Below the pieces are notes generated by a model. The model did no database searches. It had not been told where the DNA came from and saw nothing but the letters and a program-made list of their open reading frames with translations. 33,267 nucleotides of DNA, from contig NZ_PTRE01000075.1 of NCBI RefSeq assembly GCF_002965065.1, forward strand, positions 1-33,267, written 5' to 3'. This stretch comes from Escherichia sp. MOD1-EC7003 (GTDB lineage: Bacteria; Pseudomonadota; Gammaproteobacteria; Enterobacterales; Enterobacteriaceae). Below are positions 4,640-20,239 of this stretch, piece after piece. The number at the start of each line of letters is the position of its first letter. Position 1 is the stretch's first letter. The position numbers and the translations under genes are program-made.

Positions 4640-5043
4640 ATTTCCCTTCATTGAATGAATGGATATTTACCCAAAAATATTTCGGGCAGGATCGAGTATA
4701 CACAACTAAAGCATGCGAATTATGGCGCGGGGAATGAGTGATGGGGTTTTAGGATAATTGGAATGAATATCAAATATAATCCACAACTTATATACAAATA
4801 AGGTTGAAAATCAAAAAAGTTAAAATAAAATCAAAAATAATTAGCCTGTGTATTTTTCGAAATCAACCACGATTAAAAATCTATTTCAGGATTAACCTCA
4901 AGGTATGATTTTCGTTAAATCACAGACAAGGGGATTTATCTGATAAAACAATGCCGACTTATAGTCGGCATTGTTATTAAGGTTATTTAATTAATCGTGC
5001 TATGCATCAATTGCCGAATACGATGTACATATCGGCATCGACC

Positions 5044-5044: not shown

Positions 5045-5123
<79 letters not shown>

Positions 5124-8785: not shown

Positions 8786-8815
8786 TATCGAAAATATTAT
8801 TTAACAGGAGTGTTA

Positions 8816-9748
8816 ATGGCTACTTTAATGGAAAAAGATGCACTTTTAAATGGCGTTAGCCAGTGCATCGCGTTTTTATCAAACATCGTTGATAATTACG
8901 TTAATTTACAGAATCAGAAACCCGGTGATACGCTAACGCAATTAGTCAGCTATCGCGATTATCTTTATTCAACACCGTCTGAACTTGTAGATTTTGTACA
9001 AGGGAAGTTACGCCTTCAGCAAGTCAGAACTCAATACCAGCGCGAATTCAACAATACTGAGCATTCAAAAAATAAAGCGTCTTTTAATTCGCTATGGCAG
9101 CGTCTGACAAATAATGTCGTCACCACCCAGCAGCATCCCATTGCTTTTGTATTAGGTGGGCAACCGGGGGCGGGGAAATCATCCTTGATTGAATTAGCAA
9201 AAAGGGAGACAAAGGATAACATAATGATTATTAACGGTGATGATTTCAGATTTCAGCACCCTGACTTTAATTATATCTACAAAACCTACGGTGACGATTT
9301 TGTTACTCATACCGCGAAATTTTCCGGTGAAACCGTCGAATGTGCAATTGAGAGAGCTATTGCCAGCAAGCTCAATATAGTTGTCGAAGGAACATTTCGT
9401 AACGCCGCTACACCACTACAGACATTAAAAAAACTTAAAGAGGCAGGCTACCGAACGGAAGTCATGATAAAAACCACTTCATCCGCATTAAGTTGGGAAA
9501 GCACCAATGAACGGTATAATAAGGATAAAGAGGCAGGAAATATCGCCCGAAAAGTGGATAAAAATCACCATGATATCGTCACCGATTTGCTGGCAGAAAA
9601 TGCCAGCAAGGTGTTTGCTTCGAACCTGGCAGATAAGTTTTCGGTGTATTCGCGCGAGAAAATGATATTTAGTTCACAAGCGGCAACGAATGACGATATT
9701 GCAACGCTTATCCAGAATGAAATCAGCGGGAATACACAAGAAGAATAA
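8816..9748 (+). CDS. ezeT: Zeta-like toxin kinase with N-terminal inhibitory domain (EzeT-like)
   Basis: Zeta toxins phosphorylate UDP-N-acetyl sugars and so block peptidoglycan synthesis. The ATG at 8816 sits five bases after AGGAG; the GTG at 8810 overlaps that site. The product has 310 residues. The kinase domain begins near 108 and shows a Walker A loop GGQPGAGKS at 114-122, then NGDDFR near 140 and VVEGTFRN near 180. About 90 residues precede it and lack kinase motifs. No separate epsilon antitoxin gene adjoins. This matches the E. coli EzeT architecture, in which the N-terminal domain inhibits the kinase in cis. Base composition is AT-rich compared with lysC, which fits horizontal acquisition. 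The fold is seen in the motifs; activity is inferred. Confidence 0.85.
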   Translation: MATLMEKDALLNGVSQCIAFLSNIVDNYVNLQNQKPGDTLTQLVSYRDYLYSTPSELVDFVQGKLRLQQVRTQYQREFNNTEHSKNKASFNSLWQRLTNNVVTTQQHPIAFVLGGQPGAGKSSLIELAKRETKDNIMIINGDDFRFQHPDFNYIYKTYGDDFVTHTAKFSGETVECAIERAIASKLNIVVEGTFRNAATPLQTLKKLKEAGYRTEVMIKTTSSALSWESTNERYNKDKEAGNIARKVDKNHHDIVTDLLAENASKVFASNLADKFSVYSREKMIFSSQAATNDDIATLIQNEISGNTQEE

Positions 9749-9768: not shown

Positions 9769-9789
9769 CACCGGGCATCACACCCGGTG
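9769..9789. terminator. Shared hairpin between the convergent ezeT-like and rlaP-like genes
   Basis: caccggg at 9769 and cccggtg at 9783 form a 7-bp stem between the two genes; the arm overlaps the last codons of the minus-strand gene. It has no long T run. Confidence 0.55.
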
Positions 9790-10578
9790 CATTACCGTCT
9801 GGTACAGCAAACTATCCAGTTCCTTAACGTCCCCTTCCCGGCTATCCGGTAACATCGGTGGAATTTCCCCACGCGCCAGTTCTGCACGGATAAACTCATG
9901 TAACAATGGACGACGCGGTCCATATTCCGCTTCCCCCGCACGTTGTTTACGTTCCAGCAATTCGTCTATTTCTGCGCGTAACGGCATATCAAGTTCGCTT
10001 CCCATCAGTAGATCGGCAAAGCGCATTGGTGGTACGCCTTTACCCGCTTCGACCCAACGTACGGCAAGTAGCGGGCGCAGCACGTAAAAATATTTTTTCA
10101 GCCGTACTTCGTCGCCTTGTAAATAACCGCGAAAGTTTTTTCGTGCCATCGAATAATAATGCCAACGCGCACGCAACGGAGAAAACCACTTTGGCACCAT
10201 TGTCTTTAGCGCCGTTATCGTCTCTTCATCTTGCTGATAAACCACCGGTGAATCCAACCATTCAATCAGCGTCGGGTTTGCGCCTTTCAACAATCCCAGC
10301 GCCTTGCGCAATTCCCAGCCTGAAACATCCAGCTCGTTGTCGATAGGCAGTTCGATAACATCACGTGGTGACACCACCCGCAGATACCATTCCAACGGAT
10401 GAACATACAAGAACCGCACATCATAGTCGCTATCGGGCGAAGCAAATCCACAGCCGCGACTCCCTGATTCACAGGCATACAGCACTTTAACGCCATATCG
10501 CTGCTCAATTTCGTTTAACTGCCGCGAAACCCTTTCGCGCATTGCGGCACTGACGCCATTTAATAGCATTTGACTCAT
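9778..10578 (-). CDS. RlaP/COG3541-type predicted nucleotidyltransferase
   Basis: The 266-residue protein has the nucleotidyltransferase signature GSRGCGFASPDSDYDVRFLY at about residues 39-58: the GS motif followed by a paired acidic motif that binds metal-NTP. The C-terminal half is helical and basic. The fold and the MARKNFRGYL segment fit the COG3541/PF10127 family, called RlaP for RNA-ligase-associated protein, whose members often lie in operons with RtcB-type RNA ligase. The reaction is not established; nucleotide transfer to damaged RNA ends is the inferred role. Its ATG overlaps the slipin stop codon (ATGA), so the two are translationally coupled. No RtcB is in the window. Confidence 0.8.
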   Translation of the reverse strand: MSQMLLNGVSAAMRERVSRQLNEIEQRYGVKVLYACESGSRGCGFASPDSDYDVRFLYVHPLEWYLRVVSPRDVIELPIDNELDVSGWELRKALGLLKGANPTLIEWLDSPVVYQQDEETITALKTMVPKWFSPLRARWHYYSMARKNFRGYLQGDEVRLKKYFYVLRPLLAVRWVEAGKGVPPMRFADLLMGSELDMPLRAEIDELLERKQRAGEAEYGPRRPLLHEFIRAELARGEIPPMLPDSREGDVKELDSLLYQTVMHRV

Positions 10579-11702
10579 CCTTTGATATTAACTAATCCAT
10601 GCAGAACCTGGTCCAGACCGCCAAAAACAGAGATGTTATCGATCCGTTCTGCCACTCTTTCCAGTGTTTCCAGCTCTTTTAAGCGTAACGCCACCGGATT
10701 GTTTTCCATAACCTTAGCGGTATTCAACAACGAACGTGTCGCTGCCGTTTCTTCACGGCGACGAATCACATTCGCCTGTGCAGATTTCTCCGCTTCGACT
10801 AGCTGCGCAAGGATATTTTTCATATCACCAGGCAATACAATATCTTTCACCCCTAACGAGGCGATCTCCATGCCAAATGGCTGCATGCGCGATTTTACCT
10901 GTTCGCTGACGACGTCATCGATTATCTGTTTATCTTCAAGCAGCTCGTCCAACGTGCGCGTACCTACTGCTTCACGCAGCGCAAACTGCAACTCCCGATA
11001 TAGATGATCTATCGGCTTCGTCAACTGACTAAACGCCAATAATACGTCACTATAGCGCCAGTTGGCGGCGAGGTTAATCCGCAGATTAACCTTATCTTTC
11101 GTTAAGATTTCTTGCCCGCTAACTTCCAGCACCTGCAAGCGGGTGTCGACCACTTCAGCTTCAACCAGATGATTTATTTTCCAGTACGCAGTCAGCCCCG
11201 GCGGTAACAGCGCCTGCGTTTCACCATCGATTTTCAGCACACCTACGTGCCAGGCCGGAACCTGCACCGTGAGTATCGCGTCGCGGCCTTTAACAACACC
11301 TTTGCGCCGTGGCTGCAATACCGCATTCATCACATCCGTTTGTACCTGGACTTGCTGCGTATTCATCCGCACCAGCGTCAAATCATCCTCTACACGCCAG
11401 TACAAACGACGCGTTGATGGCGGTAGAATCTCCAGCAAAATACCGTCCATATACAGCGCCCCGGCTTCAGTCTCCGACAAGTCTGCCATCAGGCAATATC
11501 TTTCCACCCAATCAGGCTGAAAGCGGCGCAAATAATCTGCCAGTGTATCGGGCACTTCACTGCCATCCAGCGTAATCAGCAACACTTCCGGGGTATTTAA
11601 CCAGGGTAAAATATGCTTGCCTGCATGCAGCACTTTATAGTAATCACCCTTTCTTGCCAGTAATGCCAGTTGATCTTTTCGTACGCTAATTTTTTTAATC
11701 AT
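10575..11702 (-). CDS. Slipin/SPFH (band 7) family protein
   Basis: The 375-residue protein contains an SPFH domain at about 150-330: VPAWHVGVLKIDGETQALLPPGLTAYWKIN, then the slipin hallmark DKVNLRINLAANWR, LYRELQFALREAVGTRTLDELL and a charged helix LVEAEKSAQANVIRRREETA. The N-terminal 140 residues are not hydrophobic; I see no membrane hairpin such as classical stomatins have. It may therefore be soluble, or attach by oligomerisation or to a partner. It follows a 287-nt structured leader and starts behind AAGGAA. It is coupled to the RlaP-like gene, as in RNA-repair-associated slipin operons. Function is inferred only from context: a scaffold for RNA or the nucleotidyltransferase. Confidence 0.85.
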   Translation of the reverse strand: MIKKISVRKDQLALLARKGDYYKVLHAGKHILPWLNTPEVLLITLDGSEVPDTLADYLRRFQPDWVERYCLMADLSETEAGALYMDGILLEILPPSTRRLYWRVEDDLTLVRMNTQQVQVQTDVMNAVLQPRRKGVVKGRDAILTVQVPAWHVGVLKIDGETQALLPPGLTAYWKINHLVEAEVVDTRLQVLEVSGQEILTKDKVNLRINLAANWRYSDVLLAFSQLTKPIDHLYRELQFALREAVGTRTLDELLEDKQIIDDVVSEQVKSRMQPFGMEIASLGVKDIVLPGDMKNILAQLVEAEKSAQANVIRRREETAATRSLLNTAKVMENNPVALRLKELETLERVAERIDNISVFGGLDQVLHGLVNIKG

Positions 11703-11835
11703 TGTTTATTCCTTGTTTAATAGCCGTCGCGAAAGCAGATACGAAGCGACAGGGGAATTCCCTTTTGCCTGTTACCCGGCGTCTTTATCGGCGACGTTAT
11801 CGGGGATCATTGACCGCGCAATCCCTCATTTTTAT
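11703..11835 (-). ncRNA. Structured second half of the slipin operon leader
   Basis: On the minus strand this part, just before the slipin start codon, holds further stems. gtcgc...gcgac spans about 11727-11751, cagg...cctg encloses the palindrome gggaattccc, and cgtc...gacg lies further upstream. It may be a second Y-RNA-like unit, as some bacteria encode two in tandem, or a 5' UTR that controls slipin translation. It shows no tRNA-type motif, so I cannot choose. Confidence 0.4.
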
Positions 11836-11989
11836 TTAATAAGTTACAACCAGTATTCATTTCAGGAATGAATGCGGGAATCGAACCCATAAGTGCGTCA
11901 AAGGCTGACGGAACACGCCCGGAAAACAGCCTAGCCGTTCCTGGTGTGCCGACGGGGTTTAACCCCCTTTGTAATTCAGTATCAACGCA
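11836..11989 (-). ncRNA. tRNA-mimicking, Y-RNA-like structured RNA
   Basis: Read on the minus strand, a T-arm-like stem-loop gggTTCGATTccc lies at 11888-11876. It leads directly into a 7-bp hairpin attcatt-cctga-aatgaat (11873-11855), like a capped, permuted acceptor stem. Next comes a tggtt motif resembling the D-loop GG. The ends pair: tgaattacaa (11978-11969) with ttgtaactta (11849-11840), six perfect pairs, one mismatch, then three more. Inside lie hairpin gggg-ttaaa-cccc (11966-11954) and stem aggctg/cagcct. A terminal stem plus a permuted tRNA module is the design known for YrlA, the bacterial Y RNA that binds the Ro protein. The match is by eye, without covariation, and there is no Ro gene nearby. 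Confidence 0.65.
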
Positions 11990-11995
11990 TAGGAG

Positions 11996-12016
11996 TTATT
12001 GCGAGAAGCGTGCCAG
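11996..12016 (-). promoter_or_regulatory. Sigma-54 promoter for the RNA-slipin-RlaP operon
   Basis: The minus strand reads cTGGCACGcttcTCGCAataa. TGGCACG is the exact -24 consensus; TCGCA differs by one base from the -12 consensus TTGCA. The GG (12014-12013) and GC (12002-12001) are separated by exactly 10 bases. Transcription should start near 11989, which is just before the terminal stem of the structured RNA. Such promoters need an AAA+ activator bound upstream; RtcR is the natural candidate given the RNA-repair context, but no activator gene is in the window. Confidence 0.75.
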
Positions 12017-13374: not shown

Positions 13375-13721
13375 AAATTCTCCTGTAAAACGCGGAATAT
13401 ACCGTACCTCTTAGCGGGGAAAAACTGGGTTATGCAGCAACGTCGAAATTAAATGTGATCTGCCACGCCTTTTATCACAAAAGTGTCTCCGGAAACACGA
13501 TGCAAATTTGCCTGGCAAAATAAGGATAATCAACATATTACGAATCGTTGCACATCTGTGCTGATGACTACTACGCAAAGAAACAAATGTGCAAGAGAAA
13601 GCGCTATTCCACCCCATGCAAAGAGTGAAAAATCGCTTTGAAAGGCCATCATGATGGGGTTATATCAGATCAAGCGGTGAGAAAGCATATTTGCACAAAT
13701 GTGCAAAATCAGGAGGCGGCG
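13375..13721 (+). promoter_or_regulatory. sor operon promoter/operator region
   Basis: This gene-free region between rluF and sorC carries repeated SorC-like operator motifs. A palindrome TTTGCACA-AA-TGTGCAAA lies at 13690-13707. The 12-mer acaaatgtgcaa occurs at 13583-13594 and again at 13695-13706, 112 bp apart. A related TTGCACATCTGTGC is at 13548-13561, and gcaaatttgc near 13502 is another small palindrome. SorC acts as repressor, and as activator when sorbose is present. Repeated sites suggest looping between distant operators. Half-sites of CRP type (tgtga, tcaca) occur near 13454-13480 but not at standard spacing. Confidence 0.65.
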
Positions 13722-14669
13722 ATGGAAAACAGTGACGACATCCGTTTGATTGTGAAGATTGCCCAACTCTATTACGAACAGGACATGACGCAGGCGCAAA
13801 TCGCCCGCGAACTGGGTATTTATCGGACCACCATCAGCCGCTTACTTAAACGGGGTCGCGAACAGGGTATTGTCACCATCGCTATCAACTATGACTACAA
13901 CGAAAACCTCTGGCTGGAACAGCAACTGAAGCAAAAGTTTGACCTGAAAGAAGCGGTGGTGGTATCGGGGCGCAATGAAGAGGAAGACGCTCAGTTGGCG
14001 GTAATGGGGTTACACGGCGCGCAATTGTTAGATCGTTTGCTGGAACCTGGTGATATTGTTGGTTTTTCCTGGGGCCGCGCGGTGAGCGCATTGGTTGAAA
14101 ACTTGCCGCAAGCAGGACAATCGCGGCAATTAATCTGCGTACCGATTATTGGCGGGCCGTCCGGTAAACTCGAAAGCCGCTATCACGTAAACACATTAAC
14201 CTACAGCGCAGCGGCGAAGCTGAAAGGGGAATCGCATCTCGCGGATTTTCCGGCTCTGCTGGATAACCCCTTAATTCGTAATGGGATCATGCAGTCTCAG
14301 CACTTTAAAACCATCTCTGCCTACTGGGATAATCTGGATGTCGCCCTGGTGGGGATTGGCTCACCGGCCATTCGCGATGGCGCCAACTGGCATGCATTTT
14401 ATGGTGGGGAAGAGAGTGACGATCTGAATGCCCGTCAGGTTGCCGGGGATATTTGCTCACGCTTTTTTGATATTCACGGCGCAATAGTAGAAACGAATAT
14501 GAGCGAGAAAACGCTCTCTATCGAGATGAATAAATTAAAGCAGGCACGGTATTCCATTGGCATTGCCATGAGCGAAGAAAAATACAGCGGAATTATTGGT
14601 GCACTGCGCGGAAAATATATTAATTGTCTGGTAACGAATAGCAGCACAGCTGAACTATTACTGAAATAA
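13722..14669 (+). CDS. sorC: Sorbose operon transcriptional regulator SorC
   Basis: SorC is the prototype of a regulator family that senses phosphorylated sugars. The start at 13722 follows AGGAGG and gives 315 residues, the family length; the frame is open upstream but no upstream start has a comparable site. The helix-turn-helix is at about 22-48 (MTQAQIARELGIYRTTISRLLKRGREQG). The sugar-binding domain from about 60 shows GFSWGRAVSALVENLP, CVPIIGGPSG and, near the C-terminus, the conserved ALRGKYINCLVTN. It is first in the sor operon, 69 bp ahead of sorD. The gene appears intact. Confidence 0.95.
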   Translation: MENSDDIRLIVKIAQLYYEQDMTQAQIARELGIYRTTISRLLKRGREQGIVTIAINYDYNENLWLEQQLKQKFDLKEAVVVSGRNEEEDAQLAVMGLHGAQLLDRLLEPGDIVGFSWGRAVSALVENLPQAGQSRQLICVPIIGGPSGKLESRYHVNTLTYSAAAKLKGESHLADFPALLDNPLIRNGIMQSQHFKTISAYWDNLDVALVGIGSPAIRDGANWHAFYGGEESDDLNARQVAGDICSRFFDIHGAIVETNMSEKTLSIEMNKLKQARYSIGIAMSEEKYSGIIGALRGKYINCLVTNSSTAELLLK

Positions 14670-14738
14670 GAATCTCCCCGATGTTTACCGTGATAAAAAT
14701 TACGGCGGGTCCCTATTATCTAAAATCAGGAGTCTGTT

Positions 14739-15545
14739 ATGCAAACGTGGTTAAATTTGCAGGGTAAAATCATTATTGTCACCGGCGGCGCATCCGGTAT
14801 TGGTCTGGCGATTGTAGAGGAATTATTAGCACAAGGCGTGAATGTACAGATGGCCGATATTCACAGTGGCGACGGTCAATATGCAAGCAATAAAGGTTAT
14901 CAGTTCTGGCCAACCGATATTTCCAGCGCCAAAGAGGTAAATCATACGGTGGCGGAAATTATTCAACGCTTTGGCCACATTGACGGTTTGGTCAACAACG
15001 CCGGGGTTAATTTCCCGCGCCTGTTAGTCGATGAGAAAGCGCCTGCCGGACAGTATGAACTCAACGAAGCCGCATTCGAAAAGATGGTCAATATCAACCA
15101 AAAAGGTGTGTTTCTGATGTCGCAAGCGGTGGCGCGACAGATGGTCAAACAGCACGATGGCGTGATTGTGAACGTCTCCTCGGAATGCGGACTGGAAGGC
15201 TCTGAAGGTCAAAGTTGCTACGCCGCTACCAAGGCCGCACTCAATAGCTTCACGCGTTCCTGGTCGAAAGAACTGGGTAAACACGGTATCCGTGTGGTCG
15301 GTATCGCCCCAGGGATTCTGGAAAAAACCGGGCTGCGCACGCCGGAATATGAAGAAGCGCTGGCGTGGACGCGCAATATCACCGTCGAGCAGTTGCATAA
15401 AAGCTATACCGAACATTCCATTCCTATCGGGCGCGCGGGAAGATTAACGGAAGTAGCTGATTTTGTGTGTTATCTGCTGTCCGAACGTGCCAGCTACATC
15501 ACCGGAGTAACCACTAACATTGCTGGCGGCAAAACGCGCGGTTAA
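14739..15545 (+). CDS. sorD: Sorbitol-6-phosphate 2-dehydrogenase SorD
   Basis: SorD oxidises D-sorbitol 6-phosphate (made by SorE) to fructose 6-phosphate with NAD. The 268-residue protein is a classical short-chain dehydrogenase. The cofactor loop TGGASGIG is at 16-23, NNAGVN near 88, a Ser in NVSSEC near 147, and the catalytic YAATK near 160. The C-terminal ITGVTTNIAGGKTRG is the usual SDR end. It starts behind CAGGAG. Confidence 0.95.
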   Translation: MQTWLNLQGKIIIVTGGASGIGLAIVEELLAQGVNVQMADIHSGDGQYASNKGYQFWPTDISSAKEVNHTVAEIIQRFGHIDGLVNNAGVNFPRLLVDEKAPAGQYELNEAAFEKMVNINQKGVFLMSQAVARQMVKQHDGVIVNVSSECGLEGSEGQSCYAATKAALNSFTRSWSKELGKHGIRVVGIAPGILEKTGLRTPEYEEALAWTRNITVEQLHKSYTEHSIPIGRAGRLTEVADFVCYLLSERASYITGVTTNIAGGKTRG

Positions 15546-15554
15546 GGAGGTTTT

Positions 15555-15962
15555 ATGGTCAACGTCATTTTTTGTGCCCACGGCAAATTAGCCTGCGCCA
15601 TGCTGGAATCGGTTCAGATGGTGTACGGCGACGCCAACGTTGAAGCAGTTGAATTTGTGCCCGGCGAAAACGCCGGAGATATCGTGGCGAAACTGGAAAA
15701 GTTAGTAAGCACACACAATCAATGCGAGTGGTTGATCGCCGTGGATTTACAGTGCGGCAGCCCGTGGAATGCGGCAGCGACGCTTGCGATGCGTAATCCG
15801 CGCCTGCGGGTGATCAGCGGCCTTTCTCTGCCACTGGCGCTCGAACTGGTTGATAACCAGGACAGCATGAATGTTGATGAACTGTGTGAACACCTGATGC
15901 AAATCGCAACGCAAACCTGCGTTGTCTGGAAACAACTGGAAACGGCTGAGGAGGATTTCTGA
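15555..15962 (+). CDS. sorF: Sorbose PTS EIIA component SorF
   Basis: SorF accepts phosphate from HPr and passes it to SorB. It is a 135-residue mannose-family EIIA. The phospho-accepting His9 is in VIFCAHGKLACAMLES, and NAGDIVAKLEKLV and VDLQCGSPWNAA follow as in the family. The start has a strong AAGGAGG eight bases ahead. Its stop overlaps the sorB start (TGATG), so the two are translationally coupled. Confidence 0.94.
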   Translation: MVNVIFCAHGKLACAMLESVQMVYGDANVEAVEFVPGENAGDIVAKLEKLVSTHNQCEWLIAVDLQCGSPWNAAATLAMRNPRLRVISGLSLPLALELVDNQDSMNVDELCEHLMQIATQTCVVWKQLETAEEDF

Positions 15963-16456
15963 TGAACATTACGCTCGCCCGCATTGATGACCGCCTAATC
16001 CACGGACAGGTCACCACCGTATGGTCGAAAGTGGCTAACGCTCAGCGCATCATTATCTGTAATGACGAGGTGTATAACGATGAAGTGCGTCGGACATTAT
16101 TGCGCCAGGCTGCCCCGCCGGGAATGAAAGTCAATGTGGTCGATATTGAAAAAGCCGTCGCGGTTTATCACAACCCACAATATCAGGACGAAACCGTATT
16201 TTATCTTTTTACTCGGCCTCAGGATGCCTTAGCGATGATTCGCCAGGGGGTAAAAATAGGTACGCTGAATATTGGTGGAATGGCCTGGTGCCCGGGAAAA
16301 AAACAGTTAACTAAAGCGGTTTCATTAGATGATGATGATATTAACGCATTTCATGAATTAAATAATCTTGGCGTCACACTGGATTTACGCGTCGTAGCGT
16401 CAGATCCCTCAATCAATATTATAGACATAATAAACGAACAGTTAGTCGAAAATTAA
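15962..16456 (+). CDS. sorB: Sorbose PTS EIIB component SorB
   Basis: SorB transfers phosphate from SorF to incoming sorbose. The 164-residue protein has the mannose-family EIIB signature at its start, ARIDDRLIHGQVTTVW, with phosphorylated His14. NIGGMAWCPGKKQLTKAVSL near 105 is the usual second block. The start codon overlaps the sorF stop. A 65-bp gap with a hairpin separates it from sorA. Confidence 0.95.
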   Translation: MNITLARIDDRLIHGQVTTVWSKVANAQRIIICNDEVYNDEVRRTLLRQAAPPGMKVNVVDIEKAVAVYHNPQYQDETVFYLFTRPQDALAMIRQGVKIGTLNIGGMAWCPGKKQLTKAVSLDDDDINAFHELNNLGVTLDLRVVASDPSINIIDIINEQLVEN

Positions 16457-16464
16457 ATAATAGC

Positions 16465-16490
16465 GCCTGTGTACATATGCTTTAACAGGC
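16465..16490 (+). promoter_or_regulatory. Intercistronic hairpin between sorB and sorA
   Basis: gcctgt (16465) and acaggc (16485) form a 6-bp stem in the only large gap among the PTS genes. It may set the ratio of soluble to membrane components by mRNA processing; it has no T run. Confidence 0.4.
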
Positions 16491-16521
16491 AGGGATGACG
16501 ACACTTAAAAGGTGACAAATT

Positions 16522-17319
16522 ATGGAAATAAGTACCCTACAAATCATTGCCATATTTCTTTTTTCCTGTATTGCCGGAATGGGCAGCGTGCTGGATGAAT
16601 TTCAGACTCATCGCCCGTTAATTGCCTGTACGGTGATTGGTTTAATTCTCGGTGATTTAAAAACCGGAATTATGCTCGGTGGTACGCTGGAATTGATAGC
16701 TCTCGGCTGGATGAACGTCGGCGCGGCGCAATCTCCGGATTCTGCACTCGCCAGCATAATCTCTGCCATTCTGGTTATCGTTGGTCAGCAAAGTATCGCC
16801 ACCGGTATCGCCATCGCGTTGCCTGTGGCTGCGGCAGGCCAGGTGCTTACTGTGTTTGCCCGCACCATCACCGTAGTATTCCAGCACGCGGCTGATAAAG
16901 CAGCGGAAGAAGCACAGTTTCGCACTCTCGATATTCTGCATGTCTCCGCGCTTGGCGTGCAAGCGCTGCGCGTTGCTATTCCGGCACTGATTGTCTCACT
17001 GTTCGTCAGCGCCGATATGGTGAGCAATATGTTGAACGCCATTCCCGAATTTGTAACCCGTGGATTGCAGATTGCTGGCGGTTTTATCGTGGTGGTCGGT
17101 TACGCCATGGTGCTACGCATGATGGGTGTAAAATATTTGATGCCTTTCTTCTTCCTCGGCTTCCTCGCAGGTGGCTACCTCGATCTCAGTCTGCTGGCAT
17201 TCGGTGGCGTCGGCGTGATCATGGCCCTGGTCTACATCCAGCTAAATCCACAGTGGCGTAAAACTGAACCTCAACTCCAGGCCACCGCTTCCACCACCCT
17301 TGACCAACTTGACGATTAA
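16522..17319 (+). CDS. sorA: Sorbose PTS EIIC permease SorA
   Basis: SorA is one of two membrane subunits of the sorbose permease. The 265-residue protein is hydrophobic throughout and opens with LQIIAIFLFSCIAGMGSVLD. It carries the mannose-family EIIC block IMLGGTLELIALGWMNVGAA near 50-70 and GFIVVVGYAMVLRMMGVKYL near 190. It starts behind AAAGGTG. The polar C-terminus should be cytoplasmic. It is intact. Confidence 0.95.
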   Translation: MEISTLQIIAIFLFSCIAGMGSVLDEFQTHRPLIACTVIGLILGDLKTGIMLGGTLELIALGWMNVGAAQSPDSALASIISAILVIVGQQSIATGIAIALPVAAAGQVLTVFARTITVVFQHAADKAAEEAQFRTLDILHVSALGVQALRVAIPALIVSLFVSADMVSNMLNAIPEFVTRGLQIAGGFIVVVGYAMVLRMMGVKYLMPFFFLGFLAGGYLDLSLLAFGGVGVIMALVYIQLNPQWRKTEPQLQATASTTLDQLDD

Positions 17320-17329
17320 CGGAGCCATC

Positions 17330-18154
17330 ATGGAACAGAGAAAAATTACACGCAGCGATCTGGTGAGCATGTTTCTGCGCTCCAACCTGCAACAGGCGTC
17401 CTTCAACTTTGAACGCATTCATGGGCTGGGCTTTTGCTACGACATGATCCCCGCTATCAAACGACTCTACCCATTAAAAGAGGATCAGGTTGCGGCGCTC
17501 AGGCGACACCTGGTGTTCTTCAATACCACGCCAGCCGTGTGTGGTCCGGTCATCGGCGTGACCGCCGCCATGGAAGAAGCGCGCGCCAACGGTGCAGAAA
17601 TTGATGATGGCACCATTAACGGCATCAAAGTTGGCCTGATGGGCCCACTGGCCGGGGTCGGCGATCCGCTTGTGTGGGGAACCCTGCGCCCGATTACCGC
17701 CGCGTTCGGCGCCTCGCTGGCACTGTCCGGCAACATTCTTGGCCCGCTGCTGTTCTTCTTTATTTTCAACGCAGTGCGTCTGGCAATGAAGTGGTATGGC
17801 CTACAGCTCGGCTTTCGCAAAGGCGTGAATATCGTCAGCGACATGGGCGGGAATGTGCTGCAAAAACTGACTGAGGGCGCGTCAATTCTTGGCCTGTTTG
17901 TGATGGGCGTGCTGGTCACCAAATGGACGTCAATCAACGTGCCGCTGGTCGTCTCGCAAACACCTGCCGCAGACGGTTCTACCGTCACCATGACCGTGCA
18001 GAACATTCTTGACCAGCTCTGCCCTGGCCTGCTGGCGCTGGGTTTGACGTTGCTGATGGTGCGTTTGCTCAACAAAAAAATTAACCCTGTATGGCTGATC
18101 TTCGCCCTGTTTGGCTTAGGGATTATCGGCAATGCACTGGGCTTCCTGTCCTGA
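17330..18154 (+). CDS. sorM: Sorbose PTS EIID permease SorM
   Basis: SorM completes the membrane part of the sorbose permease with SorA. The start at 17330 (MEQRKITRSDL) lies 10 bp after the sorA stop behind CGGAG; the earlier ATG at 17300 is inside sorA. The 274-residue protein has the EIID hallmarks NFERIHGLGFCYDMIPAIKR near 25, HLVFFNTTPAVCGPVIGVTA near 60 and LMGPLAGVGDPLVWGTLRP near 100. Hydrophobic segments lie in its C-terminal half. It is intact. Confidence 0.95.
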   Translation: MEQRKITRSDLVSMFLRSNLQQASFNFERIHGLGFCYDMIPAIKRLYPLKEDQVAALRRHLVFFNTTPAVCGPVIGVTAAMEEARANGAEIDDGTINGIKVGLMGPLAGVGDPLVWGTLRPITAAFGASLALSGNILGPLLFFFIFNAVRLAMKWYGLQLGFRKGVNIVSDMGGNVLQKLTEGASILGLFVMGVLVTKWTSINVPLVVSQTPAADGSTVTMTVQNILDQLCPGLLALGLTLLMVRLLNKKINPVWLIFALFGLGIIGNALGFLS

Positions 18155-18160
18155 TTCTTC

Positions 18161-18182
18161 GCCCCGGTGCGACTGCCGGGGC
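18161..18182 (+). promoter_or_regulatory. GC-rich hairpin between sorM and sorE
   Basis: gccccgg and ccggggc form a perfect 7-bp GC-rich stem with an 8-base loop just after the sorM stop. There is no T run, so it is better read as an mRNA-stability or attenuation hairpin than as a terminator. Confidence 0.5.
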
Positions 18183-18205
18183 CATCGCTAAACATGAGGT
18201 GGTTT

Positions 18206-19434
18206 ATGAAAACAACTGCTCTGCGTCTTTATGGCAAACGTGACCTGCGTCTGGAAACATTTGACCTTCCTGAAATGCAGGAAAATGAAATTCTGGCGAC
18301 GGTCATCACTGACAGCCTGTGTCTTTCCTCCTGGAAAGAGGCCAATCTGGGCGAAAACCACAAAAAAGTGCCCGACGATGTGGCGACCAATCCCATCATC
18401 ATCGGCCATGAATTTTGCGGCGATATTCTGGCCGTCGGTAAAAAGTGGCAGCACAAGTTCCGGCCCGGCCAGCGCTATGTGATTCAGGCCAACCTGCAAC
18501 TGCCGGATCGCCCGGACTGCCCCGGCTACTCCTTCCCGTGGGTGGGCGGCGAAGCCACGCATGTGGTTATCCCAAATGAGGTCATGGAACAGGATTGCCT
18601 GCTGGCATACGAAGGCGAAACTTACTTTGAAGGCTCGCTGGTTGAACCGCTCTCCTGCGTGATTGGCGCATTCAACGCCAACTATCATCGCAGGAAGGCT
18701 CTTATAACCACACGATGGGGATTTACCCGCAAGGACGCACACTGATCCTCGGCGGCACCGGCCCGATGGGGCTTCTGGCGATCGATTATGCGCTGCATGG
18801 GCCGGTTAATCCGTCGCTGCTCGTCATTACCGATACTGACAACGATAAATTGAGTTATGCGCGGAAGCACTATCCATCAGAACCGCAAACGCTGATTCAT
18901 TACCTCAATGCCGCCGATGCATCATTTGATACGTTAATGGCACTGAGCGGCGGTCACGGTTTCGATGATATTTTCGTCTTTGTCCCCAATGAAGGACTAG
19001 TGACTCTTGCCTCCTCCTTGCTGGCGACAGATGGTTGCCTGAATTTCTTCGCCGGGCCGCAGGATAAACTCTTCAGCGCACCGATTAATTTCTATGATGT
19101 GCATTATGCCTTTACCCATTACGTTGGCACGTCAGGCGGCAATACCGACGACATGCGCGCAGCGGTTAAACTGATCGAAGAGAAAAAAGTGCAGGCAGCA
19201 AAAGTGGTAACACATATTCTTGGGCTGAATGCTGCGGGCGAAACCACGCTTGAGTTACCTACTGTCGGCGGCGGGAAAAAGCTGGTGTATACCGGAAAAT
19301 TCCTGCCGCTGACGTCACTCACGCAGATTCAGGATGAAGCCCTGGCGGCGATTTTGGCGCGTCATCAGGGGATCTGGTCCGGTGAGGCAGAGCAATATCT
19401 GCTCACTCATGCAGAGGCAATTAACCATGATTAA
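18206..19434 (+). pseudogene. sorE: sorE, L-sorbose 1-phosphate reductase, broken by a one-base deletion
   Basis: SorE reduces L-sorbose 1-phosphate to D-sorbitol 6-phosphate; it belongs to the zinc-type alcohol dehydrogenase superfamily. The start at 18206 follows GAGGTGG. The N-terminal half (IIGHEFCGDILAVGKKW, EGSLVEPLSCVIGAF) reads to NANYH near 18687 and then shifts, stopping at 18745. The correct continuation (QEGSYNHTMGIYPQG) is in the next frame, where the nucleotide-binding motif LILGGTGPMGLLAIDYAL follows, reading to HD-stop at 19434. The span of 1229 bases is one short of 410 codons. The lesion at about 18688-18691 is a single missing base (catcgcagg). Unless it is a sequencing error, sorbose catabolism is blocked after uptake. 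Confidence 0.92.
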
Positions 19435-20239
19435 TCGCGATACTCAACTCTGCATGTCGCTGGCTGGTCGCCCCGGCAACTTCGGCACACGTTTTCACAA
19501 TTATCTGTATGAAACGCTGGGGCTGAATTTCATCTACAAAGCGTTCACCACACAGGATATTGAGGCGGCGGTGAAAGGTGTTCGCGCATTAGGTATTCGC
19601 GGCTGTGCTGTGTCGATGCCGTTTAAAGAAAGCTGTATGCCCTTTCTCGATGCTATCGATCCGTCGGCAAGGGTTATTGATTCTGTGAATACCATCGTGA
19701 ATGACGACGGCAAGCTGACGGGATTTAACACTGACTACATCGCGGTGAAAAGCCTGATTATTCACCACCAGCTCAATACCACCAAACGGGTGATGATTCG
19801 TGGTAGTGGCGGCATGGGCAAAGCGGTAATTGCCGCCTTTCGCGACGCGGGGTTTACGGATGTCATCATCGCCGCCCGCAACCACGAGAGCGGCCCGGCG
19901 CTGGCGAAACAGTATGGCTTTCGGTGGCAACCACAGCCAGAAGGAATCGACTGCGACATTCTGGTTAACGTGACGCCTGTCGGCATGAGCGGTGGTAAAG
20001 AGAGCCATGAGCTGGCCTTTAGCGAGGCAATGATCTCTGCGGCAAGTATCGTTTTTGACGTCGTGGCATTGCCGCCGGAAACGCCGCTCATTCGCCTGGC
20101 GCAACAGCTTGATAAGCAGACAATCAGTGGCGCAGAGGTGATAGCCTTACAGGCCGTCGAACAATTCGCGATGTATACCGGCGTACGACCTGATGTGCAG
20201 CTGATTGCTGAAGCGGCACAATTTGCACGAGAAGGATAA
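19427..20239 (+). CDS. Shikimate dehydrogenase-like (AroE-family) oxidoreductase
   Basis: The 270-residue protein is an AroE/YdiB-type NAD(P)-dependent dehydrogenase. The substrate domain shows GCAVSMPFKESC near 60, with the catalytic Lys, and NTIVNDDGKLTGFNTDY near 85. The cofactor domain has RGSGGMGKA near 125 and VNVTPVGMSGG near 183. It opens MINRDTQLCMSLAGRPGNFG instead of the usual short SHS substrate motif, so it probably is not housekeeping AroE; true substrate unknown. Its ATG overlaps the end of sorE by 8 bp, making it the last gene of the sor operon. It is not part of the seven-gene Klebsiella-type sor set as I recall it. Confidence 0.85.
   Translation: MINRDTQLCMSLAGRPGNFGTRFHNYLYETLGLNFIYKAFTTQDIEAAVKGVRALGIRGCAVSMPFKESCMPFLDAIDPSARVIDSVNTIVNDDGKLTGFNTDYIAVKSLIIHHQLNTTKRVMIRGSGGMGKAVIAAFRDAGFTDVIIAARNHESGPALAKQYGFRWQPQPEGIDCDILVNVTPVGMSGGKESHELAFSEAMISAASIVFDVVALPPETPLIRLAQQLDKQTISGAEVIALQAVEQFAMYTGVRPDVQLIAEAAQFAREG

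Follow-up and report, generated by a model that had tools for sequence, protein, structure and literature searches.

A small operon of Escherichia sp. MOD1-EC7003 raises the question of which protein a tRNA-like RNA serves when it shares a transcription unit with two candidates. The window analyzed here is the whole of a stretch of 33,267 nucleotides (contig NZ_PTRE01000075.1, positions 1 to 33,267). On its minus strand, between yjbD and lysC, lie a sigma-54-type site, a leader of ~300 nt with a tRNA T-loop, a gene for a slipin of 375 amino acids (SPFH/band 7; 11702-10575; PF01145, 2.7e-27) and a gene for an RlaP nucleotidyltransferase of 266 amino acids (10578-9778; PF10127, 1.9e-93, a full-length family match), the two reading frames being joined by an ATGA overlap. 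A first-pass annotation, made from the letters alone, had described this arrangement, and its coordinates, promoter, T-loop leader and coupled genes were confirmed in the sequence. It had also suggested that the RNA docks the nucleotidyltransferase. The comparisons reported below lead us instead to consider it likely that the locus is a reduced RtcR/sigma-54 RNA-repair module, and that its tRNA mimic is the RNA partner of the slipin.

The Leader Resembles a Reduced tRNA Elbow

All elements of the leader lie on the minus strand. The first, domain A (11988-11894), is a covarying three-way junction closed by GCGTTGA/TTGACGC; this closing stem comes from single folds and was not counted. It is followed by a mimic of the tRNA T-arm, GGG-TTCGATT-CCC, with the T-loop GGGTTCGATTCCC (11888-11876), identified by pattern match and by covariation. 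Next come an acceptor-like hairpin, ATTCATT/AATGAAT, and then a D-loop-like ACTGGTT (11873-11848), a permuted order that has moderate support, and a small hairpin, GGGAT/ATCCC (11825-11803), taken from the RNAalifold consensus, its pairs not being counted. The last element, domain B (11796-11725), is a long covarying hairpin that is also described by a covariance model, R2. Domain B ends ~10 nt before the ribosome-binding site of the slipin, and the structured leader thus reaches almost to the slipin start.

Of 51 leaders, 33 were kept after near-identical ones had been dropped (alignment A2); alignment A3 has 32, L108 having been excluded by choice before counting. In domain A and the T-arm (33 non-redundant leaders), 96.7% of cells were paired and 21 of the 25 pairs showed changes on both sides. 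None of 500 shuffles scored as high on any of five measures, and slid partners were far lower. Domain B (32 leaders) gave 96.5% paired cells; double changes were present in 13 of its 19 pairs, and again 0/500 shuffles equaled it on the five measures. Both domains thus covary, so that the annotation's own refuting condition, a leader without covarying structure, did not arise, and its proposal of a tRNA mimic is supported. Covariance model R1 scored 91.5 bits on the window, over 11993-11874, and R2 scored 105.5 bits, the window being a training row of each. The T-loop pattern turned up in 6 of 20,000 shuffles, and the loop fits GTTCGANTC in all 51 slipin loci of the family set; its variable position is the one that varies in tRNA as well, N59. 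These results support the view that the leader is a covarying tRNA mimic, a reduced tRNA elbow.

ARAGORN found no ordinary tRNA in the window, and RF00005 had no match there. Membership of the Rfam YrlA family (RF02553) was also rejected, with no match at the gathering threshold or at E≤5, true YrlA loci scoring 69-101 bits; no similarity of domains A and B to YrlA was seen. The annotation had called the RNA Y-RNA-like, which fits its topology and not its family membership. Run on the host genome, R1 gave one further weak match (contig C165, E 0.89).

The RNA Accompanies the Slipin

RlaP was detected in 51 of 295 family genomes, and 71 RlaP loci were examined, some species twice, from two collections. 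The pattern GGTTCGANTCC occurred within 480 nt upstream of the first gene at all 51 loci that have a slipin, and at none of the 20 RlaP loci that lack one. At the 51 slipin loci the sigma-54 site lies 294-387 nt before the slipin. Twelve of the 20 slipin-less loci are operons with rtcR2 (a second, divergently oriented rtcR of ~528 amino acids, 62% identical to the housekeeping RtcR), and their sigma-54 site stands only 49-105 nt before the first gene. Over the 20 whole slipin-less loci, R1 gave only two matches (9.5 bits, E 4.6).

When R1 was run over 246 family genomes, it returned 26 matches at E≤0.01, 22 of them strong (E≤5e-8) and four, in small genomes, weak; a slipin was present at 21/21 of the strong matches whose surroundings were read. 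Over 369 class genomes, with stricter filters, it found only the window's own match and one weak one (L143), by eye an ordinary tRNA.

Relatives Carry a Fuller Module at the Same Site

Thirty-two named RlaP loci were taken from genome contigs, 29 of them from Enterobacteriaceae. In 25 of these 29 the module adjoins lysC, and yjbD too where the stretch extends far enough. The fuller form at this site reads rtcR2 <- -> tRNA-mimic RNA - slipin - (rtcB) - rlaP, and is carried by Citrobacter, Klebsiella, Phytobacter, Kosakonia, Enterobacter, Leclercia and others. Against the NCBIfam model of RtcR, rtcR2 scored 819 bits (cut-off 650). An rtcR adjoins 61 of the 71 loci of the family set, and rtcB sits between slipin and rlaP in many relatives. 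The arrangements vary: rtcR2 occurs with slipin-rtcB-rlaP, slipin-rlaP, rtcB-rlaP or rlaP alone, and rlaP or rtcB-rlaP also occurs without rtcR2. The combination of promoter, RNA, slipin and rlaP without rtcR2 was seen only in the window and in E. coli L111 among the 71 loci. Because relatives have rtcR2 and rtcB in the same place, the unit would belong to RtcR-controlled RNA repair, as the annotation had proposed. Its description as a stand-alone unit is true of the window and of E. coli; judged against the fuller module of the relatives, that state looks derived by loss.

The window locus itself has no adjacent rtcR and neither RtcB nor RtcA. Searches of the window for rtcB and rsr gave no matches, and those for rtcR2 gave chance matches only (best E 0.40), no remnant of rtcR2 being found. 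The host draft genome (333 contigs) is near E. coli, with identities of 88.1-90.5% for the 29 matches covering at least 90% of the query among the 30 matches listed. At a separate locus it has rtcA-rtcB with a divergent rtcR, and the product of this housekeeping gene is the only RtcR-family (PF06956) protein in the genome. RtcB matches were found at three places, beside rtcA and at two others. The absence of RtcB and RtcR noted in the annotation therefore holds for the locus and not for the genome, while its statement that Ro is missing extends to both, there being no Ro/TROVE match in the genome at E≤0.001. The two further RtcB homologues lie at L007 1021-2445 (contig C65) and L008 4709-5860 (contig C11); the gene after the latter looks like prfH.

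A Conserved Promoter and a Candidate Activator Site

Sigma-54 sites were ranked by a weighted score based on the sigma-54 consensus. When the upstream 480 nt were shuffled base by base, none of 2000 shuffles reached the score of the window site, TGGCACgcttcTCGCA. The promoter, TGGCACGCTTCTCGCA, spans 12015-12000 on the minus strand and is conserved in relatives; transcription is expected to start near 11989. All 61 rtcR2 loci scored at least 14, and the motif, like the RNA, is thus conserved with the slipin-RlaP pair.

Further upstream lies a putative RtcR2-type activating site (12137-12099, minus strand), consisting of a TTATC-N6-GATAA palindrome with CGATA and GATAA. The palindrome is 122 bp upstream of the -24 element, and its chance occurrence was put at 0.0006 by shuffling of the window's 150 nt, for a pattern picked after inspecting the loci. 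Among 31 non-redundant rtcR2 slipin loci, 25 have it 132-135 bp ahead of the -24 element. The window and five of six E. coli alleles retain it at a distance of 122-123 bp, shorter by about one helical turn, and in the sixth allele it is off by one base. In the diverged E. coli allele L187 the flanking DNA has changed and the upstream site and promoter are retained.

Published accounts describe an upstream RtcR site, an IHF site and a sigma-54 site at the E. coli rtcBA promoter (PMC9650030), and the switching on of RtcR by tRNA fragments (PMC7790460, PMC9879122). RtcR1, the housekeeping protein, and RtcR2 (of L039) share 63% of their last 71 residues, and the stretch NDADRLRKYLARFGLSWE is the same in both. 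Because the upstream site and the promoter are kept without rtcR2, and because the genome has one RtcR, activation of the unit in trans by RtcR1 is plausible.

Slipin Loci outside the Family

A slipin profile applied at E≤1e-60 matched 12 of 197 genomes from the order and 16 of 284 from the class, and 25 loci besides the own locus were compared; L189 (= L149) was part of the profile. The T-loop pattern GGTTC[GA]ANTC occurred within 1.5 kb upstream of the slipin on the same strand in 25/25 loci and on the opposite strand in 0/25, with 0.23 expected from shuffles. Downstream of the slipin it occurred in 2/25, both being loci where ARAGORN finds further tRNAs. The Rfam tRNA model matched 8 of 10 loci in the order (L190-L199) and 12 of 14 in the class (L200-L213; one cut by the locus end), and rtcR was within the flank of 9 of 11 order loci (L189-L199).

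Some of these tRNA-like elements are odd, with anticodons AGA, AGT, AGG or AAG, or loops without a normal anticodon. Scores of 37-52 bits were obtained for L192-L196, for L199 and for the third element in each of L197 and L198, against 70-77 bits for the Asn and Lys tRNAs further upstream in those two. Those of L202, L207 and L209 may be working tRNAs, because they have ordinary anticodons and scores of up to 69 bits. In L205 an array of 13 tRNA genes encloses the slipin, and the stretch begins with rtcB, an arrangement that recalls the Anabaena tRNA operon discussed below. R1 and R2 scored 47 and 29 bits on L181, R1 scored 25.8 on L194, and R2 scored 24.7 on L190; on the remaining distant loci R1 did not exceed 20 bits, nor R2 13 bits, most of the distant loci being unmatched beyond the T-arm. 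In L149, three tandem tRNA-like genes (2669-2883), two of them with anticodons AGA and AGT, lie between a degenerate sigma-54 site and slipin-rtcB-rtcA-rlaP.

A tRNA-like element thus recurs ahead of this kind of slipin in other gammaproteobacteria, and these slipins may therefore act in RNA repair as partners of such RNAs. We put forward tentatively, as a possibility somewhat short of an even chance, that this slipin clade is a dedicated partner of tRNA-like RNAs across Gammaproteobacteria, a counterpart of Ro60 and Y RNA. The RNA would range from complete tRNA arrays via an acceptor-stem domain (L181) to a bare elbow, permuted in Enterobacteriaceae via a Superficieibacter-like intermediate in which one acceptor strand is able to pair on either side and two D-loop-like elements occur together.

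The same loci bear on another explanation, in which the leader is a mere 5' untranslated region that acts in cis on the slipin mRNA, governing its translation or stability, for example by sensing tRNA-handling enzymes, and no free RNA is made. Its continuity with the slipin frame, and the end of domain B close to the ribosome-binding site, fit this. However, in other families recognizable tRNA genes, sometimes several, occupy the same position, and YrlA, a free RNA according to the literature, likewise lies inside rsr-yrlA-rtcB operons. We regard a purely cis-acting leader as unlikely, although it deserves serious weight.

Selection and Alternative Roles

Compared with six E. coli alleles, the slipin gave ratios of nonsynonymous to synonymous substitution (dN/dS) of 0.029-0.044 and rlaP of 0.059-0.075; by this measure both proteins are under strong purifying selection. 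The slipin-RlaP module was covered over at least 80% in 1614 of 5426 complete E. coli genomes (about three in ten), and rtcR, at the same coverage, in 4746 of them. The selection and the frequency of the module do not suit the idea that the module is a decaying relic in Escherichia, never switched on without rtcR2. Decay would explain why rtcR2 and rtcB are gone from the locus, and the Escherichia relative L084 provides a case of it: there a deletion removed the RNA together with nearly all of the slipin, so that the slipin tail and rlaP remain; the -24 element is changed as well, the upstream palindrome being still readable. Given the low dN/dS values, the frequency of the module in E. coli, and the conservation of promoter and upstream site among E. 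coli alleles even amid diverged DNA, we judge a relic improbable.

A role of the RNA as docking site or substrate of RlaP, the first of which the annotation had proposed, would account for their sharing one operon in the window, and RlaP is a plausible RNA-end nucleotidyltransferase. The distribution described above argues against it, the T-loop being missing at all of the slipin-less RlaP loci, including the 12 that are rtcR2/sigma-54 operons. Moreover, the RNA stays with the slipin where RlaP does not adjoin: L180 has rtcR2, RNA and slipin and no RlaP in a 12-kb stretch, and L181 has rtcR2, RNA, slipin and rtcB and no RlaP in a 9.6-kb stretch, its genome having divergent RlaP copies on another contig. 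We therefore consider service to RlaP very unlikely.

By sequence, the nearest solved structure to the slipin is 3bk6, a stomatin; a structure model of the slipin was too poor for use (predicted local distance difference test, pLDDT, 55.6). The GSR...SDYD residues of RlaP were kept in 22/22 aligned sequences, and a model of RlaP (pLDDT 83.9) matched nucleotidyltransferase folds, 3c18, ANT(4'') and HalB among them, at TM-scores that were low (only ~0.4). A defense module, in which RlaP would make a nucleotide signal as HalB-like enzymes may, with the adjacent zeta/PezT-like gene as effector, draws on that resemblance and that neighbor, and is very unlikely given such TM-scores and the lack of a PADLOC family for slipin or RlaP; the zeta gene, too, is frameshifted in some E. 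coli alleles or stands away from rlaP, and no copy of it was found in the stretches from relatives. At the position of Trp in the GSRGWGF/GSRAWGF motif of the other 21 aligned sequences, those of E. coli among them, the RlaP of the window has Cys.

A Working Model and Its Weak Points

For a reduced repair module in which the slipin is the partner of the mimic, we infer the following course. RtcR1 would induce the transcript from the sigma-54 promoter, and the transcript would release, or carry in cis, the tRNA-elbow mimic, which would bind the slipin. The RNA-slipin particle might then serve as a scaffold that collects damaged tRNA or, alternatively, as a decoy that occupies a tRNA-cutting or tRNA-modifying enzyme. 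RlaP would extend tRNA or RNA ends by adding nucleotides, and sealing would fall, in trans, to the housekeeping RtcB.

Several points weigh against this reading. Its support is sequence comparison, and the leader could act only in cis. The locus counts are not independent, because the loci are related and some species occur twice. The exact palindrome is missing in 6 of the 31 rtcR2 slipin loci, and the host rtcBA promoter carries CGATA-N6-TATCG instead, at a different distance; RtcR1 may be unable to read an RtcR2-type site. Single ancestry of all the tRNA-like elements is unproven, because R1 and R2 leave most distant loci unmatched, and several distant elements look like ordinary tRNAs. At the class loci (L200-L213), rtcR was in the 1.5-kb flanks of 0/14, no sigma-54 score exceeded 13.5 within 1 kb, and 6 of the 14 were without any repair gene in those flanks. 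The RtcR link would therefore be a feature of the order at most.

Relation to Known Systems

Salmonella carries rsr-yrlBA-rtcBA, as set out in two reports (PMC7790460, PMC9879122). That locus shares with the module a divergent RtcR, a sigma-54 promoter, a tRNA-mimic RNA and RNA-repair enzymes; the module differs in having a slipin in the place of Rsr and in the addition of RlaP, and the window in being without rtcB and rtcR. With YrlA the leader shares the order T-arm, acceptor-like hairpin, then D-arm/D-loop element (the YrlA order was read by eye in L118), whereas in the window the D-arm is reduced to the loop-like ACTGGTT and the partner gene is a slipin. We found rsr-YrlA-rtcB loci in L118-L122 and L147. 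TROVE matches occurred in 5 of 198 family genomes, two of them over the cut-off, and all five carry RlaP on another contig; those RlaP loci were without slipin in 5/5, so that Rsr-YrlA and the slipin-RNA pair were never together there (L118-L122 on the rsr side; L074, L078, L079, L088 and L097 on the RlaP side).

In Pseudomonas aeruginosa, an SPFH protein, PaFlo8, is encoded in the rtc locus with RtcA, RtcB and RtcR (PMC13086221). An SPFH gene in an rtc locus is thus common to both, whereas the window has no rtcAB or rtcR at the locus, and the passage on PaFlo8 mentions no RNA. In Anabaena a slipin gene, rtcB and the trn tRNA operon are under one repressor, TrcR (PMC10272220). The likeness lies in a common stress control of slipin, rtcB and tRNA genes, and the differences in separate loci, a repressor instead of RtcR, and true tRNAs. 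The window copy of RlaP, although a full-length member of its family, has no adjacent ligase. Among the matches listed for slipin with RlaP, RtcB, or tRNA genes or arrays, no title or abstract described the RNA-slipin pairing, although slipin or tRNA-like genes may have been mentioned earlier in rtc operons.

The findings bear on the roles of bacterial Y RNAs and on those of SPFH proteins in rtc loci. The tight genetic link between slipin and tRNA-like RNA makes binding of the mimic, or of damaged tRNA, by the slipin directly testable, and this in a well-tooled species, the reduced form being so frequent among complete E. coli genomes.

Two Apparent Topologies of the tRNA-Like Elbow

The strand that follows the T-arm finds its partner further downstream in the window, E. 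coli, Citrobacter, Klebsiella and others (permuted: ATTCATT/AATGAAT, TTTCAT/ATGAAA, TTCATC/GATGAA, TCACC/GGTGA, TCACT/AGTGA), and in most of them ACTGGTT comes next. In Kosakonia L055/L057, Franconibacter, Siccibacter, Mangrovibacter and L181, an acceptor-like 5' strand lies upstream of the T-arm (unpermuted), GCGAA, GCAAA, GGAAAA and TCAGTG pairing with TTCGC, TTTGC, TTTTCT and CACTGA after it. These lineages usually have a D-loop-like AGTCGGTT before the T-arm, and the L181 domain has an acceptor stem and an ACCA-like end. The Superficieibacter-type loci L043, L047, L104 and L180 allow either pairing; L043 and L104 have an intact upstream D-loop-like element, and that of L047 and L180 is altered. 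The leaders of L065, L106 and L108 fit neither topology well.

Acceptor pairs were counted in alignment A5 (15 rows, lacking L072 and L103 of the unpermuted group); no counts were taken from alignment A4, which misregistered the permuted stem. In A5, 94.7% were paired and the covariation score was reached in 0/500 shuffles, but the number of double-change pairs in 30/500 and that of further types in 65/500. A single-sequence stem search gave p values of 0.028-0.251 in the permuted group (15 sequences) and of 0.033-0.126 in 12 of 13 unpermuted sequences, with 0.95 for L103. Because this single-sequence significance is weak, we treat the window elbow as apparently circularly permuted, as in YrlA, a supported hypothesis and not a proof. 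If both topologies were confirmed, a tRNA mimic would have changed by circular permutation within one bacterial family.

Surroundings of the Module

The gene beside rlaP encodes a Zeta/PezT-like P-loop protein (8810-9748, plus strand) and is convergent with it; E. coli L185 has it annotated as a frameshifted gene, and rlaP of E. coli L186 and L187 has other neighbors, phage tail genes among them. Elsewhere in the window, naRNA4 repeats lie at 4-258 and 5048-5119, and a match to the STnc430 small RNA at 4833-4982. Positions 13638-20239 hold an apparent sorbose-like phosphotransferase system operon, in which a sugar-binding regulator domain was detected; the remainder of this operon and its rluF and pepE flanks are presumed from gene sizes.

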